A stretch of DNA of 64,000 bases from Branchiostoma floridae (Eukaryota; Chordata; Leptocardii; Amphioxiformes; Branchiostomatidae). Of this stretch, positions 17,510-62,600 are shown in pieces (position 1 is the stretch's first letter; each line of letters begins with the position of its first letter). A program made the position numbers and the translations under genes. Below the pieces are notes generated by a model. That model was not told the DNA's origin, made no database searches, and saw only the letters and a program-made list of their open reading frames with translations. Location of the stretch: NCBI RefSeq assembly GCF_000003815.2, contig NC_049997.1:15006213-15070212 (forward strand). Direction: 5' to 3'.

Positions 17510-20688
<3,179 letters not shown>

Positions 20689-34600: not shown

Positions 34601-37600
34601 AGTTGGAACACCACTTTTCTCCCACCTATGTGCATAAGCTTTTAATTGATTTCTTGATAAGATAAAACATAAGTAGTCAAATGTAACTGGAAGAAAGGAG
34701 AACGGATAAGCAGCTAATTTGAAGAAAGTAATAACTTGGAAGTGGGGCAACCTGAAATGTTGGTGGTGTAACCTAGCTTTTGACCCAGGTTGCCACCAGG
34801 ACAACCTGGCTAAAAAAAAGTATTTTGAGCCCTGCCCACGTGACATTCAGACCCCAACCAACAACCAAAATGATGACTGCTTCAGATACAAGACAAAATC
34901 TGTGAGGCACATAAATATTGTCAAAAGTACAAAGTAAACCATTATCATTATGACATGTCCATACTCACTAGGTTTGATGTCCATGTGCACCAGGTTCTGA
35001 CTGTGAATGTACTTCAGCCCCTGCGCCACCTGTACCAGTATTTCCTTCAGCTCGCACTCGCTAAACGGTCTCCCGTGTTTCTGATTGGCCGTCAGGTCGT
35101 CTGCTAAACTCCCGCCTGAACGTGGTAAACAAAGAAGCAATGTCAGCTTCCAGCGGAACAACACTGGCAACAACAATTGTTGTTATTGAGATGTGACTGC
35201 ACACCGAATTGTTATGTTAATTTATTACTGCAATGGTAGTCTTACCAGTAATACAATTTTTCTGACATATTCAGAACCCTGTCTCTAGTCACCACCTTTC
35301 TACTGCGACCTTTCTTGAGATTGAGAATTGCAAGAAATGCAGACTTAAAGGTTGATAACCGTCTCGAAACAGAGTGGCAGTGGGTATACAAAGAAATTAG
35401 GTCAAAAAGAATGAGTTCCTTTCTAACCTCCTTGGTTTCACACTTTAGTTAACTATAGACATTTATTGGGTATTAGTGGAAGAGGAACCAAAATATTTGT
35501 GGTCTTACCATTGCAGTATTCGTTCTGTATGATCATGTGGTCGTCCTCTGCCCATGCGGAGTAGTATCTCACCACGTGGGGATGTTTCCCGAGCACTGCG
35601 TGGGCGTAAACTTCCTTTATTGCATTTTGTCTGAAAACGAAAAAATAGTCGTAGGTAAAATTTTTTTCATCGGGTAAAGGGTATGGCAAAACCATACGCC
35701 AGCAGTATATGTCCAACAAGGGCCCTGGTATACCGACCTACAATCAATGTGTCTTACTGCATCAGCTCAGCCCACCAATCAGATACTCCCCCTCCTGTTA
35801 CTGGAGGAAAGCTATCAGCCAATCACATTCTCTGTTGAAAGAAAGAGGCTATTTGATTGGTTGGTAACTTTCCTACAAAGGACAATGGGAGGAGTCTTAA
35901 ATGAGAGAATGGGAACTGTATTACATTACAAATTGTTATGCAGATAAAATTCATCTGTATCAAGTTGAGTCTAAGATGTAAGTTCGAAAAATATAGCTAC
36001 ATGAGGAAAGCTAGTATCAAATTTTGATTGAAAAGCTTTCCTGAGCTTGCGATAGCTACTGTACTGTACTTACTCATCTGTTGATCCAGCCACTGGCTTT
36101 TTAGACTTTTTGATGGCGTACAGACAGCCGTCAAGGCGGTTGATGCACTTGTACACGGAGCCGAACTCTCCGGAGCCGATGCGCTCTACCTCGTGAAACT
36201 CGATGTTGTACCGCGACACGTTTGCGTCATGGAGAGCAATTTTCTGTGGCAAAAAAAAAACAAAGCATGTAAGCATGACAGAAGTGATTGTGGATACAAA
36301 AGGTTTCAAACAATATCTGTGACTGGTGATATCCAAACACATAGATATTCATTGAAATGCAATATTTTCATTGTTTTTTAACCTGCAATACGACCTTACA
36401 TACGTGTGTTCAATTTGTGACTTCAAGCAGAAAAGGATAATGCAAGAAAACAACAGAATAAATGAACAATCTTACTTTGGTTGGGTTTTCTTCATCAGAC
36501 TCCTCATCAACGTCGGATAACATCCCACTGGAAAGAAGAGCAACAGGAACATGGTTACTATGTGGGTGTATGTGTAACCATATCAATATCACTGTGAGTA
36601 CAATGCTATACTTGTGACCAAACTAAAACACACCGTACATTTACATTTACTGACTGACTAGATCTAGTAAACAGATTAACCAGTGTTTCCGCCAGAGGGG
36701 CGTCCACCCGTCCATTGACGGTCTCATTTCGTTTTGGACGGCTTGAACGCAAACAGAGGCCGTCCTCATAAAAGCGACCCACATTTTGCCGAGAAATCTG
36801 TACAAACTTTAACAAAGTCGATAAATGTAAACCGCAGTTTTGTGTTTTGTATTGAAGCTAGACGCTTGGGGACGCCGTCCACAGTCAGAAAGCCGCATAC
36901 TGTTTGTTTTGCTATTGTTATGATTGTTGACAATGTGTGTCGGCGGCCTTTCGCATACGATAGTTTTTCAAGGTCTCAGTTATGCGAATTTTCCCTGCCA
37001 CATTTCGAAAACTTGGCGGTAGGTCGATCTCGCTATTACACTACAAACTAATAGTTTTTATTGGGAGAAAAAATTTAATAAGAAAACACACTAACTTTGT
37101 CTAGATATTAAAAACTTTAGTCTCTGTTTTCATCATCAATCATCGTAAACAAAACAAAACACGATGAACAGAAACATGTGCCCACCGGGGTGCTCGGCAC
37201 GGGAAATCCCCAACCTCTTTCAAGTTCGTTATCGGCAACACAGCGGAAAAATAAAGGGTTCACCTAAGAGGTGATGGACGTAAAAAACATCAAGTATAAC
37301 TTTGGTTCATTTTTATATGAGTTTTGAGCCCGCAAAATCTCCGAAAACGGCAGAAATTTTCGGGATAAATACGCATCAAAAATGGCGGTCAGTAGCTGTT
37401 GTGTATCCTAGCCAATCACAGCGCTAGTTTCCCGTGACGTCACTAGTTTTCCCAGATCTCGCGAGAAGTCACCACGTGAGATTGCGGGATTTCGGCCGCC
37501 ATTACGCTCACTGTCGCCGATAGACAATGTTTTTCGTCATTTCTGAACGCAAATTTCTCGATCTATGGAAGGTTTTAGATGATTTATAAGTATACTACAA

Positions 37601-44890: not shown

Positions 44891-47434
44891 ATGGTTGTTT
44901 TACGCGCCGTCTTGCTTTGGGCCAGCATCTCTGGTATCCATGGTAACCGATGCACCAAGACCCTGCCGACTACCGGCCACGTCCGGTACTCCAGCCGGGA
45001 GTCCGCCCAGGCCTTGGTGGAAACTTTCATCCAATCGTCTATCAAACCCGGGGAGACCCTCTGTTTCACCTTACATGACGTCACCAACGATGACGCAACC
45101 TCTGACGCCTCAATCTCCATGGCAACGAATGGGAGCGTGCCGTTGCTATGGCAACTCACCTACGAAGGCATCGAGATGGAGTACGGCGTCAAGAATCGGT
45201 ACTCCTTCTACAGACCGAAGTACGAATCAAAGTGCATCTGTGACTGCCCTCAATATGGCGACTACTGTAACTCCAAAACAAACCGCTGCACTGAGCACGA
45301 GCTAGATTTCTGTTACAACACTTACAGATCCGACCAAACGGCTCATGGTTGTCTTGCTTATTGGAACAGCGAAGAATCAGAAGTCTGCTGCGCTCTTTAC
45401 GTCGGGAAACACCCCGAGTCGCCTAAATACGACGCCGTGTACCTTTCTTCGGACGGCAAACCGATCGTCAAGCTCGCTCTCAAAGTCTACGACAGCAGGA
45501 CTGACGAAGTAGTGTATTCCTATCCAACTTTTACAGTCGCTTTGAATGATCGAACTCACAGGGCACAACACTCGGTAAGAATGGAGGTGACAGGCGACAC
45601 CCCGACACAGATCGACAGCGGGTACTACTATGCTACGAGTGAAGGGACCCAGCTATACACGGACGTTAGTATTAACGGTCTAAACGAGTTTGATCCGAGA
45701 AAGATGGGGTGGCTGAAAGTTCGTGACGACGGGACCGTGGAACGGCCCCCCGAGAGAACAGTGCTCGACGCGTTCCACTTGAAGACACATAAATGTCATA
45801 ACAAATTTGACTATACAGAAACATGGCAGATATATGGCGAAGGGGATTGGAAGCATTATTCCGGGTCGCGTGTTGAGAATTTCTACGGCTGGGTACGGAG
45901 GGTTAGTTACTATCCTCAGCGGCGTTCGGTTACGGTCGTCCCGCGGTATGACAGACTCGTTACGGTCAAGATCGGGATCAACACCACGACAAACGTCCTC
46001 TTCTTCTACCACGACTCAGATCTGATAGACTTCACGGCCGAAGTCCGGGTAGACAAGCACTCGAACCGATTCGCCAACATAACACTGGTGGCAGCGGTGG
46101 GATCACTCGTGGGATCCATTACACCCTATTACGGCGCCGACGGAGCTAGCTCAGCAACAGTACACAGATTTGAACTACACGTGGACTCTCCACCTGCAGC
46201 GAACACCATTAAGCGCATTTCCTTGCCGAAAACGATAAACGGCACGAGTCGGATGTGTCTGTCGCCGCTTTCCAAACCTAACAACGAGGTCTGCAAAACC
46301 GTGCCGTTCATACAGGAGGCGCTGCAGGACTTTTTCGTGCCGCCAACCTGGAGGCCTGGCAACCCTGGGAGCGCCGGGCCGGGGTTCAACTTCAACTGGC
46401 TCTTCGACTTTTTCGGTTAGTTTTCTCTCTTTCAGGCTTAACCAAAGCCCCCTTCGGAACATATTGCAAAGAATGATGTATAGGAAGACAATGGCCCTAG
46501 TCAAAAATCCCATACATGCAAATTTATGCAAATTTTACGATTAGCAAAACGCAGATTTTTTTATCATATGGGTTTTTCATGTTTTTAATGTATACAGGCT
46601 TTCTGAACCCCGCCGAATGGTTTGACGGCATCCAGGGCTGGTTGGAACTGTTCGCCATGTTGTTGGACATCGCCTTGTTCATTGCAGGCATATTTCTGTT
46701 CATCAAGGTCTGCACGTGCTTCAACGTCTTCACGACAAAGGCTCCGAAATGGGTAAGGGTTAACAGGGCCAGGCCACAGCAAAATGCATTGATTTTCGTC
46801 TGATTTCGTAAAAAAAACACGATATTTCGTTCCCCTTTCGATACCTTGAGTGTACAGTTGTACAAGTGACATTAATGTGGTATAGCCTGGAATGTAGCTG
46901 TAGAACTGACACTCGTATGTGCTTGATTTATAATTTACAATGTACTAGGCTGCCAGTCAGTTTGTGCCGTTCTTGGATACAGTAATAAAAGGCTTGTTGC
47001 CTGTGACAATGTTTTGTCACTTCAACTCTAGTCAATATATTTATCAGGTGTCCGTTTAGGCATCTTGTTTTTTTTTTACATCTTTTTATTTTTCCCGCTC
47101 TGGCTTAATTTACATTTGGAGCCTGCTGGACTGTCCAGCACTTTACCAATGACATCATAGCAATTAGCAGTTCGACCAATCAGAGTGTAGCTGCAAGTCT
47201 ATCAGACCAATGAATGCTCATGATGTTTTCAATTTATTTCACACTTTTGAAGATGGTCAATGGTGGGGCTATGGGATCGGTCTATGACCGGGACCTTGCT
47301 CTATTTAAGGGTGCTGAACAAGCATTCCCATTGTTTAAAAACGTATTGTTTTATTGTTTGATTTTATCTAGGATGAGGGGGTGGAGATGTCAGTTCTACG
47401 GCGTCGGAAAGCAGAACCTGGTGACGTGTGCTGA
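44891..47434 (+). CDS. Candidate EFF-1/AFF-1-type cell-cell fusogen (type I membrane glycoprotein, about 580 aa)
   Basis: One long exon (44891-46415) encodes a signal peptide (MVVLRAVLLWASISGIHG), then about 490 ectodomain residues with many cysteines, notably ESKCICDCPQYGDYCNSKTN, NRCTEHELDFCYNTY and SEVCCALYVG, plus several N-glycosylation sites. It ends at a donor (TTCG|gttagt) just before an in-frame stop. Exon 2 (46598-46752) gives FLNPAEWFDGIQGWLELF and a transmembrane helix (about residues 524-544). Exon 3 (47372-47434) adds a short charged tail ending EPGDVC. Phases agree. The Cys-rich block, paired CC, single C-terminal helix and size resemble the nematode fusogens EFF-1 (658 aa) and AFF-1 (589 aa), which act at the cell surface to merge plasma membranes. 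The family call is recalled similarity, not a search; an unrelated secreted-type receptor remains possible. Exon 3 is the least certain part. A host gene, with a truncated copy 1.2 kb downstream. Confidence 0.6.
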
Positions 47435-48650: not shown

Positions 48651-49547
48651 ATGTACCGGCTACCCTCTCATATCATCGTCTTAGCTGTCTTGGTAACGTC
48701 AGGACTATGTCTCGATGGTCTTTCTCACCTGGGCGATTTTACAGCAGAAGTTGTGTTGGACAGGTTCTCCAACCGTTTCGCCAACATAACACTGGTGGCA
48801 GCCGTGGGATCACTTCTGGGCACCATCACCCCTTTGGTCACAGAAAACCAACACGGGGTCCCGTTCACGTTCGAGCTACGCGTGGACTCGCCGTCCAAGG
48901 TTACATCGTTAAAGCGTGTGTCTCTACCGAGCAACATCCATGGTCACAGCCGGCCGGCTGTGTCTGTCTCCCTTGTCGCGACCAGACATGGAAATCTGTA
49001 AGGTGGTACCGTTTGTCAAGGAACCAATCGGAAGGTTTCTTGTTCCGTCCGAACCCAAGCTTAGGGCTAGTGAAGGTCAGAAACAACGCAGCGACAACGG
49101 AACTGCCCGTTCGTTTGGGGGTGAGCTTTCAAGCTTTATGTTAAAAACTAACCTAATTAAAATCAGCAAGTGTGAACAAGAAGTTTTGATGTTATAAAAC
49201 AAACACATAGAAAGAGTCGCTTTTTACTCCTCTTTTGGCTTGGACTTTTGTCGTAGGATTTATAGTTGATTAGGCTACCGAATTGATGTTTGCCTGTTTG
49301 ATTGGTAATGTTATCAACACATTTACAGCTCTTATCTGTGTATTATGGCCTTTGTCCAGAGTACATGAACCCCGGCCAGTGGTTGGATGGTGTCCAAAGT
49401 CCGCTAGAGGGCGCAGCTATCGCTGTCGACATCTTCTTGCTGATGGTGCTCATCGCCGGTTGTGTGGCTTCAGTCAGTGTCCGGTATGTACGGCGCGGCT
49501 GTGTTCGTCAGGACGTGCCGATCGAAGCTATGACAGCTAGTGTGTGA
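48651..49547 (+). pseudogene. Truncated tandem copy of the fusogen-like gene, apparently decayed
   Basis: The first part carries a signal-peptide-like start (MYRLPSHIIVLAVLVTSGLC) joined to DFTAEVVLDRFSNRFANITL, which matches the membrane-proximal ectodomain of the gene at 44891 (DFTAEVRVDKHSNRFANITL). A later part matches its LCLSPLSKPN...KTVPFI region, and a separate exon at about 49362-49547 matches the transmembrane exon (YMNPGQWLDGV, then a hydrophobic helix and a tail [18 protein letters not shown]). The Cys-rich N-terminal three quarters are absent. The ectodomain part looks broken in about one place, while splice signals flanking the transmembrane exon keep the same phase as the parent. 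Either a recent pseudogene or, if the break is an assembly or allelic artefact, a mini-protein. Confidence 0.62.
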
Positions 49548-49570
49548 GACAGTCAGCATGGACGATTGAA

Positions 49571-49903
49571 ACATTCATTCATTCATTTATTCATTCGTTT
49601 ATTCACTCACTCATTCATTCATTCATTCATAGATGTTCAATCAATCCGTCCGTCCATCCATCCATCAATCCATCCATCCATCCATCCATCCATCCATCCA
49701 TCCATCCATCCATCCATCCATCCATCCATCCATCCATCCATCCATCCATCCATCCACCCATCCATCCATCCATCCATCCATCCATTCATTCATTCATCCA
49801 CACATCCATCTATCCATCCGTCTACTCATTGATAATGTATTTATTTATCTATGCACTTATTAATCTACTCATCCATTCATTCATTCTTTCAATCATCCAC
49901 TTC
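49571..49903. repeat. CATC/CATT tetranucleotide satellite
   Basis: More than 30 CCAT units in the core (about 49652-49790), flanked by CATT units. Open frames across it consist of Ile-His-Pro-Ser repeats and are not genes. It directly follows the truncated fusogen-like copy. Confidence 0.97.
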
Positions 49904-59649: not shown

Positions 59650-62600
59650 TCACAATGGACAAATGAAAGAACAAAGGAACTCTAGTTCTTGTACGATGAT
59701 GTCCTGTGCTGGGTGAATGGCATCCCCATGCCAGTGCTGTGCATTGGTCATTTCCCAAACATCTACAAGAACAACGTTCATCCCGCGGAACATTTCTCTC
59801 ATTATCAAGTCCAGCTTGTGTGCCAGCCAATCCCCACATTTCAGCTCATTGCCCTTGGCCGTGTTTGCCGACTTGATGACCACCAGAGTTTCAGGACTCC
59901 TGTGCAGTAAACGTTCTATTGCAGCACGGACGGCTTCCATTCTTTTCCTGTAGACCTCCACAGGGTACGAGGTGAAATGTGCCCACATGGTGATACCAAC
60001 CACATCGTTCGGTCCTCCTTCGATTTCATCGATGATGTTAGCGACATACTTGAGGAGAAATGTCAAAATAAAAGGACAGCGACGAGGCGGTCCGTGTGCA
60101 CGATAGTTTAACGTTATGTTATTAACAGGATCTCGGGCGAGCAATGGTCCAGTTTTGTGTATGGCCCAAGGAATATGTGTTTCTTTCATTTTCAAGATTC
60201 TGACGAAATGTTCCCACCACTGCCGTATGGTAGAGTCCCCCATGAAATGCAGAGTTTTCCCCTTCAGGCATTGCTGCCAGCCGGCCTGGCTGGAGAAATG
60301 TCTGTTCTTACAGACGAGAGAGTTCCACACGCCGTTCCGATAGAACCCAGATATCTGTGGAGTGGCCAGTCCCCAGACACACCGTCTGCGATTGGCCAAA
60401 GGATCTTGCCCTGTGTTAAGAAGGAGAATGCCATGATATCCAGTTAGCCTCCACTAGGCCTTCCTACGGGAGTATGGATCGTAGAATTCAGCAAAAGAAG
60501 GAGATTCTGATTGGCTGTCCAGCGGTGACGCAACGCAACGAGAGCACGAATCACCGACGATTGCTTGCAGGCGACATTCTCTCTCTCTTTAGAACAGAGT
60601 TATGTTTACACACATCCCATACTCCCTTCTGCTTAGAATGAAGCTGCAATTGACGCGTTCAACATTCAGAAAACATATCGTCTTACTCTATTATCAAGAT
60701 AAATGGAAGAAATGTGGCGTACCTTTTTTCACATTGATTTTAGATGGAGATCCAGAAATAGACATCTTCAGTGCAGTGTTGCCCCTGTAGCAGGATCGAA
60801 ATGCACAACGTTGCACGTTGGAAAAAACGGCATCGTACATATCAACATTGTTTGCTTTATCATACCACCGGTTTGGATTATCATTATCAATTGAAAGGTC
60901 GACAACTTTGATAATTGTCATTGTCATAAATGGTTTGCATTGTCGGTTTGCACTATGATAAAAGGTTCTTTCGTGTCGAAAATTTTATAACCATCACATG
61001 TGGTGTTTGTAGCGATTGCAAGTCTAAAATACGAACAGTTCAAATTCAGACACCTTTGCTATGATGTCATAATCTGCATTTTTGACATTCAGAAGTACTC
61101 CTATATTGAAGGGAAGCATGATGTTCATTTAAGTAGTAACTCTTGCGTTTTCCAAGCGCACCAGGCATTTTATATATAGTTTTATACATAGTTAAGATAG
61201 ATGATCATTGTGCGTCAACATACCTGCTAAACAGTTTTCCACCTTTCACGTCCCTGTACCTAAGTGTGCCATGGTATCCTGATGTGTTACAAGGGATGTT
61301 GGCGGCTTTCTCACAATACCACCAGGCGCCTGCATGCGGGTCCGAGTAGTTACAAACTGCACTGGTGTTTTTGAAGATGGCAGGGTCTACGTTACACTCG
61401 GTGTCGATAACAGTGTTCTTTCCTACTATATAGCGTTTTCTAAACATGACAAGATCAATTGGATATTTTCGGATAGTTCTTTCTATAACATCGATAGCCT
61501 GCCGTGGGTGGACCAGTTGGATTTTGATGGTGACCTCCCCCTCCCACAACAGTCGGAACGTCGCCGTGTAAGTACCGTTCTGGTGGTCCGTTATGATACC
61601 GACTGCACCAGAACCTGCCTTCCCTTTCACTGCGGTAAGGATGGACGCCCGAAAGAAATCGCCAATGTTTGTAACTATGTTGTTTTGTGAATCTTTGGCA
61701 GAGATCTCAATGCGCAACATATCTCCTACAGAATATTGTCTGCCAGACTCAGAAGCTAAGGAAAATTTCAGCTGCCTCTTATAGACCGCAGCAGAGAACG
61801 GTTTGGTCGTTTGTAACACCGGAGAAAACGGTTTGGTCGTGTTCAACACCGGTTTCTCAATTACAATGTTGTTCCACCGATGTCGAAATGAAGGAACATC
61901 ATTAGAAGATTCTGCCGTAAACCATTGCGTTTTCATCATTCGTTGGCTGATCCATTGCGAGCTCTACAGATAATAAAAGAATTGCGTCACCCATCGTTCA
62001 CAAGAAGCATTGACGTCAATCCAAGAAGTAGGGGTGGGTAACGGTACAGTGTAAACAAAACCAGTTTTTCTTATTGGACCGGTCCGGAAAAACCAGACCT
62101 GAAAATTTTCGGTGGACCGGATGTAGGACCTACTGGAAAATGAACAGATTATATGAACAGGCATTCACACGTTTTGGGGCTTACCCGTCTGGGAAAATAA
62201 CAAGAGCGAAGTAGAGTAGAGCCTATAGCCATTTCTACCATAACAGTCAATAGTACAGGGGCAGTTAGCCTTGTAGGATTTTAAAACGCCAGTGGCAGTC
62301 AAATACTCCACAAAACAGATTTCTTTGGACCATCGTTTTGAGTATCGTCTATTCACAAGTTCTCACATAATGAATCAGGTTCAGGTCCGGACCTGATCCT
62401 TTGGACCTGAACTGGACCTGAATTTTCTGTACCGGTACCCACACTAGCCTGGTTACCAAACCCCAGCCCGATCTCAAGTATCTATCGTGCAAGGGTCTGG
62501 ACGGATGGCATAGGCAGCCTTCTCAATTTTGCCCCCTATAGTGGGCAAAAAAACTCCACCAATTAGAACAGCAGCAGGATCAGCAGGAGGTACTACACCC

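Follow-up and report, generated by a model that had tools for sequence, protein, structure and literature searches.

Does an invertebrate chordate possess a cell fusogen of the kind known from nematodes? The question is raised by a gene of the lancelet Branchiostoma floridae, located at positions 44891-47434 of the stretch analysed here, 64,000 nucleotides of contig NC_049997.1 (15,006,213 to 15,070,212, forward strand), called below the window. An earlier note, made from the sequence alone, had likened its product to the EFF-1/AFF-1 fusogens. At the level of sequence, membership of the gene in this family (FF) is secure. We consider it likely that it encodes a type I, class II-type membrane-fusing glycoprotein; for a tandem copy, reduced to domain III, the likeliest role, wherever it is made intact, would be to limit fusion.

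Relationship to EFF-1

Searched against Pfam-A (E <= 10), the product of exon 1, which makes up most of the protein, matched a single family, PF14884 (EFF-AFF), with an E-value of 6.4e-69 and a score of 233.2 bits, where the curated cut-off is 25. Among all PDB chains, the four top matches were C. elegans EFF-1A sequences (E 2.7e-22 to 9.5e-21), the best two covering query residues 31-489; the two remaining rows, at E 0.48 and 0.56, were unconvincing. The profile search thus bears out the proposed resemblance. Chance is excluded, because of the strength of the Pfam match and because all four matches found in a large protein database (see below) come from lancelets and align over 100% of the query.

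Compared with C. elegans EFF-1 (PDB 4ojc and 4cyl), the lancelet protein shows homology over residues 31-489, the same type I topology, and an NPxxW motif before the membrane helix, found in EFF-1, in the full-length lancelet protein and in the truncated lancelet proteins described below. Within the part that aligns with the EFF-1 fragment, all 13 cysteines are common to both proteins; in this comparison C21 precedes the fragment, while C547, C549 and C583 of P0001, the B. floridae x japonicum orthologue, follow it. In contrast, identity is about 23% (103 of 440 columns between P0001 and the fragment), the lancelet loop aligned with the domain II tip is 3 residues longer and carries Tyr-Trp along with three acidic residues, and a domain III-only paralogue stands in tandem with the lancelet gene.

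Being homologous to EFF-1, whose crystal structures are known, the lancelet ectodomain would have a class II, three-domain fold. A direct demonstration by structure prediction failed: the AlphaFold2 model of the full ectodomain, built from five close sequences, reached a pLDDT (predicted local distance difference test) score of 28.1, and was too poor for anything to be drawn from it.

No relationship to other fusogens emerged. The HAP2/GCS1 profile gave no match to the exon 1 product (Pfam, E <= 10, a range in which the HMMER filters remove most matches beyond about 0.1), nor was there any sequence match to the proteins that the review PMC8784728 counts as fold relatives of EFF-1, PF14884 being the only Pfam family at E <= 10 and EFF-1 the only protein found by a profile in PDB at E <= 1. 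That profile was built from three lancelet proteins and the EFF-1 fragment, and the E-values it gives to EFF-1 are circular: only the absence of other chains is used here. A family search with this alignment brought back just the four lancelet orthologues described below, and nothing from nematodes. The database or its word filter therefore misses known members, and the search says nothing on whether vertebrates or other animals lack the family. In prokaryote genomes, a scan with two short patterns, a weak test, gave no relatives among 81 pattern matches.

At window positions 45764-45781, residues D321/D322 of EFF-1, changed in PDB 4ojd, align with D293-A294; the corresponding residues are D-G in P0001 and N-T in B. 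belcheri, and the acidic pair is thus not kept.

Structure of the full-length gene

The gene consists of three exons on the + strand (44891-46415, 46598-46752 and 47372-47434), encoding 581 residues. The frame of exon 1 is open from the ATG at 44891 over 508 whole codons and one base, up to 46415. Both introns have canonical ends: intron 1 (46416-46597, 182 nucleotides) reads GTTAGT...ACAG, and intron 2 (46753-47371, 619 nucleotides) GTAAGG...CTAG. The stop codon is a TGA, whose last base is 47434. G+C content is 52.8% in exon 1 and 40.3% in the whole window. The features are:

44891-46415, +, exon 1: predicted signal peptide, then the ectodomain, which aligns with domains I-III of EFF-1, and the beginning of the stem (open reading frame, splice sites, PF14884, EFF-1 PDB chains)
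45350-45391, +, loop bounded by C154 and C167, which aligns with the tip of domain II in EFF-1 (alignment and cysteine map; loop position from sequence alignment only)
46016-46345, +, domain III, the part duplicated downstream, about EFF-1 residues 410-507 (matched by the second copy of B. belcheri in tblastn, at 53.6% identity over 110 columns)
46598-46752, +, exon 2: NPAEW juxtamembrane motif and predicted transmembrane helix (splice sites, hydropathy; tblastn of P0001 residues 509-563, 89% identity)
47372-47434, +, exon 3: last part of the short cytoplasmic tail (GDVC), followed by the stop (matched by P0001 residues 565-583 in tblastn, at 94.7% identity)

Both inspection by eye and hydropathy suggest a signal peptide at the N-terminus, which is hydrophobic (1.08-1.26) in the orthologues P0001, P0003 and P0004. 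The highest hydropathy over 19 residues, 2.72, starts at residue 526, within exon 2, and is followed in full-length lancelet proteins by a tail of 37-39 residues. Signal peptide and topology are predictions from hydropathy, according to which the protein has a type I layout, with a signal peptide and one C-terminal membrane helix.

Open frame, splice sites and hydropathy agree with the earlier description of a signal peptide, a Cys-rich ectodomain within a single exon and a membrane helix in a separate one. The three exons and the end at 47434 were reproduced, and the motifs singled out at the time, CICDC, CTEHELDFCYNTY and CCALYVG, are all found in the exon 1 translation. The extent given for the locus holds for the full-length gene, but the locus is larger, since it also includes, at 48651-49547, a truncated second copy of the family.

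At 46700-46752, the window protein reads NV-FTTK after the membrane helix, three residues fewer than all four database orthologues, which have AG and one more residue before FTTK: this may be either an in-frame difference or a difference between gene models.

Lancelet orthologues and previous reports

A search of 5.8 billion proteins with the exon 1 query yielded four matches, all from Branchiostoma, at 82-98% identity: 98% for B. floridae x japonicum (P0001), 85% for a hypothetical protein of B. belcheri, and 83% and 82% for two B. lanceolatum proteins, Hypp8880 and P0004, respectively. Two of the four, P0001 and P0004, already bear the NCBI name "cell fusion protein aff-1-like".

A 2016 paper (PMC4723337) mentions FF members in a chordate and describes the distribution of the family across animals as patchy. 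Together with the names in the records, this mention removes the novelty which the earlier note had implied: a chordate FF gene is already in print, at least in outline, and the finding, although correct, is largely known. The survey behind the mention is reportedly that of Avinoam, 2011. Our literature searches found no paper joining EFF-1, fusogens and Branchiostoma, none for PF14884, and, in the search on EFF-1, AFF-1 and HAP2, none with "cephalochordate". Neither the truncated paralogue nor the Tyr-Trp loop is mentioned in the passages covered, none of the searches having named the domain III-only protein.

A truncated, domain III-only paralogue

The second family copy begins 1.2 kb downstream of the full-length gene, on the same strand. 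It was located by tblastn of the orthologues, which aligned to 48702-49116, in two frames, and to 49359-49541. Its parts follow in the order: own ATG at 48651, hydrophobic leader, domain III, stem, a phase 1 intron, NPGQW and membrane helix; the intron equals intron 1 of the full-length gene in both phase and place. Two exons can be recognized:

48651-49120, +, exon A: own predicted signal peptide, domain III and stem, with the frame broken near 48953 and a first stop at 48999 (PF14884, tblastn; exon end read directly from the sequence)
49360-49547, +, exon B: NPGQW juxtamembrane motif, predicted transmembrane helix and short tail (tblastn of P0006 residues 155-215, 62.9% identity; splice sites read directly)

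The 5' piece of exon A matches PF14884 at E 9.2e-9, while the 3' piece alone scores 11.8 bits, below the cut-off. Domains I and II are missing beside the copy: the residues of the full-length proteins that precede domain III match nothing else in the window (tblastn, E <= 0.01). Between the two copies of the window, synonymous divergence (dS) is about 1.9 and nonsynonymous divergence (dN) 0.37 in the larger piece, 77 codons (by a simple count, near saturation), which indicates that the tandem duplication is old.

Related proteins are found in other lancelet records. A search with the B. belcheri copy returned five matches of 214-231 residues, all predicted proteins of Branchiostoma: one from B. 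floridae x belcheri, three from B. lanceolatum (Hypp8881, an uncharacterized protein and Hypp8949) and one from B. floridae x japonicum. In all five, the Pfam match runs from position 325-327 of the 467 in the profile to its end, and all share a hydrophobic N-terminus, a C-terminal hydrophobic stretch, the two cysteines of domain III and a sequon at residue 44-51. The number of Hypp8881 adjoins that of the full-length Hypp8880, and in the B. belcheri record (P0002) one gene model spans the full-length gene into the copy, whose frame is open there. The records suggest that truncated and full-length genes share contigs, P0009 with P0001, P0006 and P0008 with P0003, and P0007 with P0004. Judging from these predicted proteins, the domain III-only copy is kept in lancelets.

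P0009, the B. floridae x japonicum protein, matches the window copy at 84% and 89% in the two exon A pieces and at 69% in exon B; these values being below the 98% of the full-length pair, P0009 may represent another copy, or one that changes fast. In B. lanceolatum, P0008 (Hypp8949) is a second domain III-only gene, apparently on the same contig as Hypp8881, which suggests a further duplication. Immediately 3' of the truncated copy of the window, at 49556-49850, lies a long TCCA/TTCA simple repeat, a possible source of instability of the locus.

The loop aligned with the domain II tip

The tip of domain II in EFF-1 carries EDD 157-159, in the numbering of PMC4050280. These residues correspond to 179-181 of the 658-residue EFF-1 chain, and the same offset of 22 also fits both DDE motifs given in that paper. 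The lancelet loop aligned with this tip has 11 residues between its cysteines, against 8 in EFF-1, and contains Tyr-Trp, then one residue, then Ser-Glu-Glu/Asp-Ser-Glu; Tyr-Trp is found in all four orthologues as well as in the window. By this alignment, the acidic residues of the non-hydrophobic EFF-1 tip are kept, but three residues and a Tyr-Trp pair are added. Aromatic tips of viral class II proteins and of HAP2 insert into membranes, which makes a one-sided mode of fusion conceivable for the lancelet protein. The aromatic loop bears on whether FF fusogens must be present on both membranes.

Possible mode of action and alternative explanations

By its kinship with EFF-1, the full-length protein would merge plasma membranes from their outer face. 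Monomers on apposed membranes would engage and then trimerise, and domain III would fold back along the domain I-II core, drawing stem and anchor to the tip; EFF-1 is thought to trimerise and fold back its domain III (PMC4050280). Fusion activity of the lancelet protein we infer from the same kinship. The product of the old tandem duplication would keep nothing but signal peptide, domain III, stem and anchor; it should not fuse membranes alone, because domains I and II are missing. Where an intact copy is made, it would most likely settle on the core at the position of domain III and thereby limit fusion. According to PMC8784728, fusion by EFF-1 is blocked by soluble domain III: a brake is hence the most economical role for a domain III-only protein, which may, by analogy, be a built-in fusion inhibitor. 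If so, a cell fusogen of class II type would have its own dedicated antagonist.

A bolder combination can be envisaged, in which the membrane-anchored paralogue prevents fold-back by binding to the trimer core of domains I and II in its open state, as a natural counterpart of recombinant domain III, while the aromatic tip gained by the fusogen could insert into the partner membrane and allow one-sided action; we regard this joint scheme as unlikely. Suppressyn, an inhibitor of syncytin-driven fusion, shares with the scheme the idea of a shortened fusogen relative as brake, but it belongs to an unrelated family, and the analogy to the lancelet copy is functional speculation. Paralogue and aromatic tip are, in any case, parts worth a test.

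Several observations weigh against a working copy. In the window, the frame read from the ATG at 48651 stops at 48999, through a frame shift near 48953, and decay is equally compatible with this break. In addition, domain III diverges more quickly in the copies than in the parent: when B. belcheri-type sequences are compared with those of B. lanceolatum, identity is 75.5-79.4% for the copies (102 columns), against 89.3-90.3% for the full-length proteins (103 columns). The copies that do read through are predicted proteins, open by construction. That the truncated copy is functionless debris of the tandem duplication is accordingly a possibility to be taken seriously, even if we lean away from it: the five lancelet matches run from hydrophobic N-terminus to tail, that of B. 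floridae x japonicum fitting both exon A pieces, two cysteines and a sequon are kept in each of them, and divergence from the parent is old (dS near saturation), with a dN of 0.37 in the larger piece.

As for the full-length protein, the earlier note had envisaged fusogen-driven syncytium formation. This is unsupported: amphioxus myocytes are described as unfused and mononucleate, yet many myoblast fusion genes are expressed (PMC8805411, a paper in which EFF-1 does not figure). The FF fold might have been kept for use within one cell, in sculpting of neurites or tubes, in repair or in scission from the outer face, with no syncytia. Besides the unfused muscle, roles ascribed to the worm proteins speak for this, endocytic scission and tube elongation in the case of AFF-1 (PMC5931541), neuron sculpting in that of EFF-1 (PMC4050280); the worm proteins, however, combine such roles with cell-cell fusion, and sequence does not separate the two, so that we hold exclusive single-cell use to be plausible but less likely than not. 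Very improbable, in our view, is the capture of a class II envelope gene from a virus or retroelement in place of inheritance from an animal FF ancestor. Class II viral proteins do share their fold with EFF-1 (PMC4050280), and the patchy distribution of the family (PMC4723337) would suit such an origin. Yet sequence matches are limited to EFF-1, the profile finding no viral PDB chain at E <= 1, the full-length gene has introns, and none of the 9 neighbouring open reading frames scanned is viral, those with matches above cut-off belonging to a kinase, to an NXPE gene and to a protein with SHIPPO repeats. A scan of IMG/VR with two short patterns, a weak test, found no relatives among 123 stretches. 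With a membrane-fusing glycoprotein as the favoured reading, the full-length gene makes an FF fusogen available for testing in an invertebrate chordate lineage, whose muscle is nonetheless described as unfused.

Neighbouring genes

Other coding sequences were recognized on the - strand of the window:

59653-61963, -, NXPE family gene (NXPE4_C, E 5e-79; neurexophilin part, E 1.4e-15)
34850-36348, -, protein kinase exons (Pkinase, E 4e-10, and 1.5e-7 just under the cut-off), Wee1-like by eye
18902-19360, -, open reading frame with Sperm-tail PG-rich (SHIPPO) repeat (E 1.2e-6)
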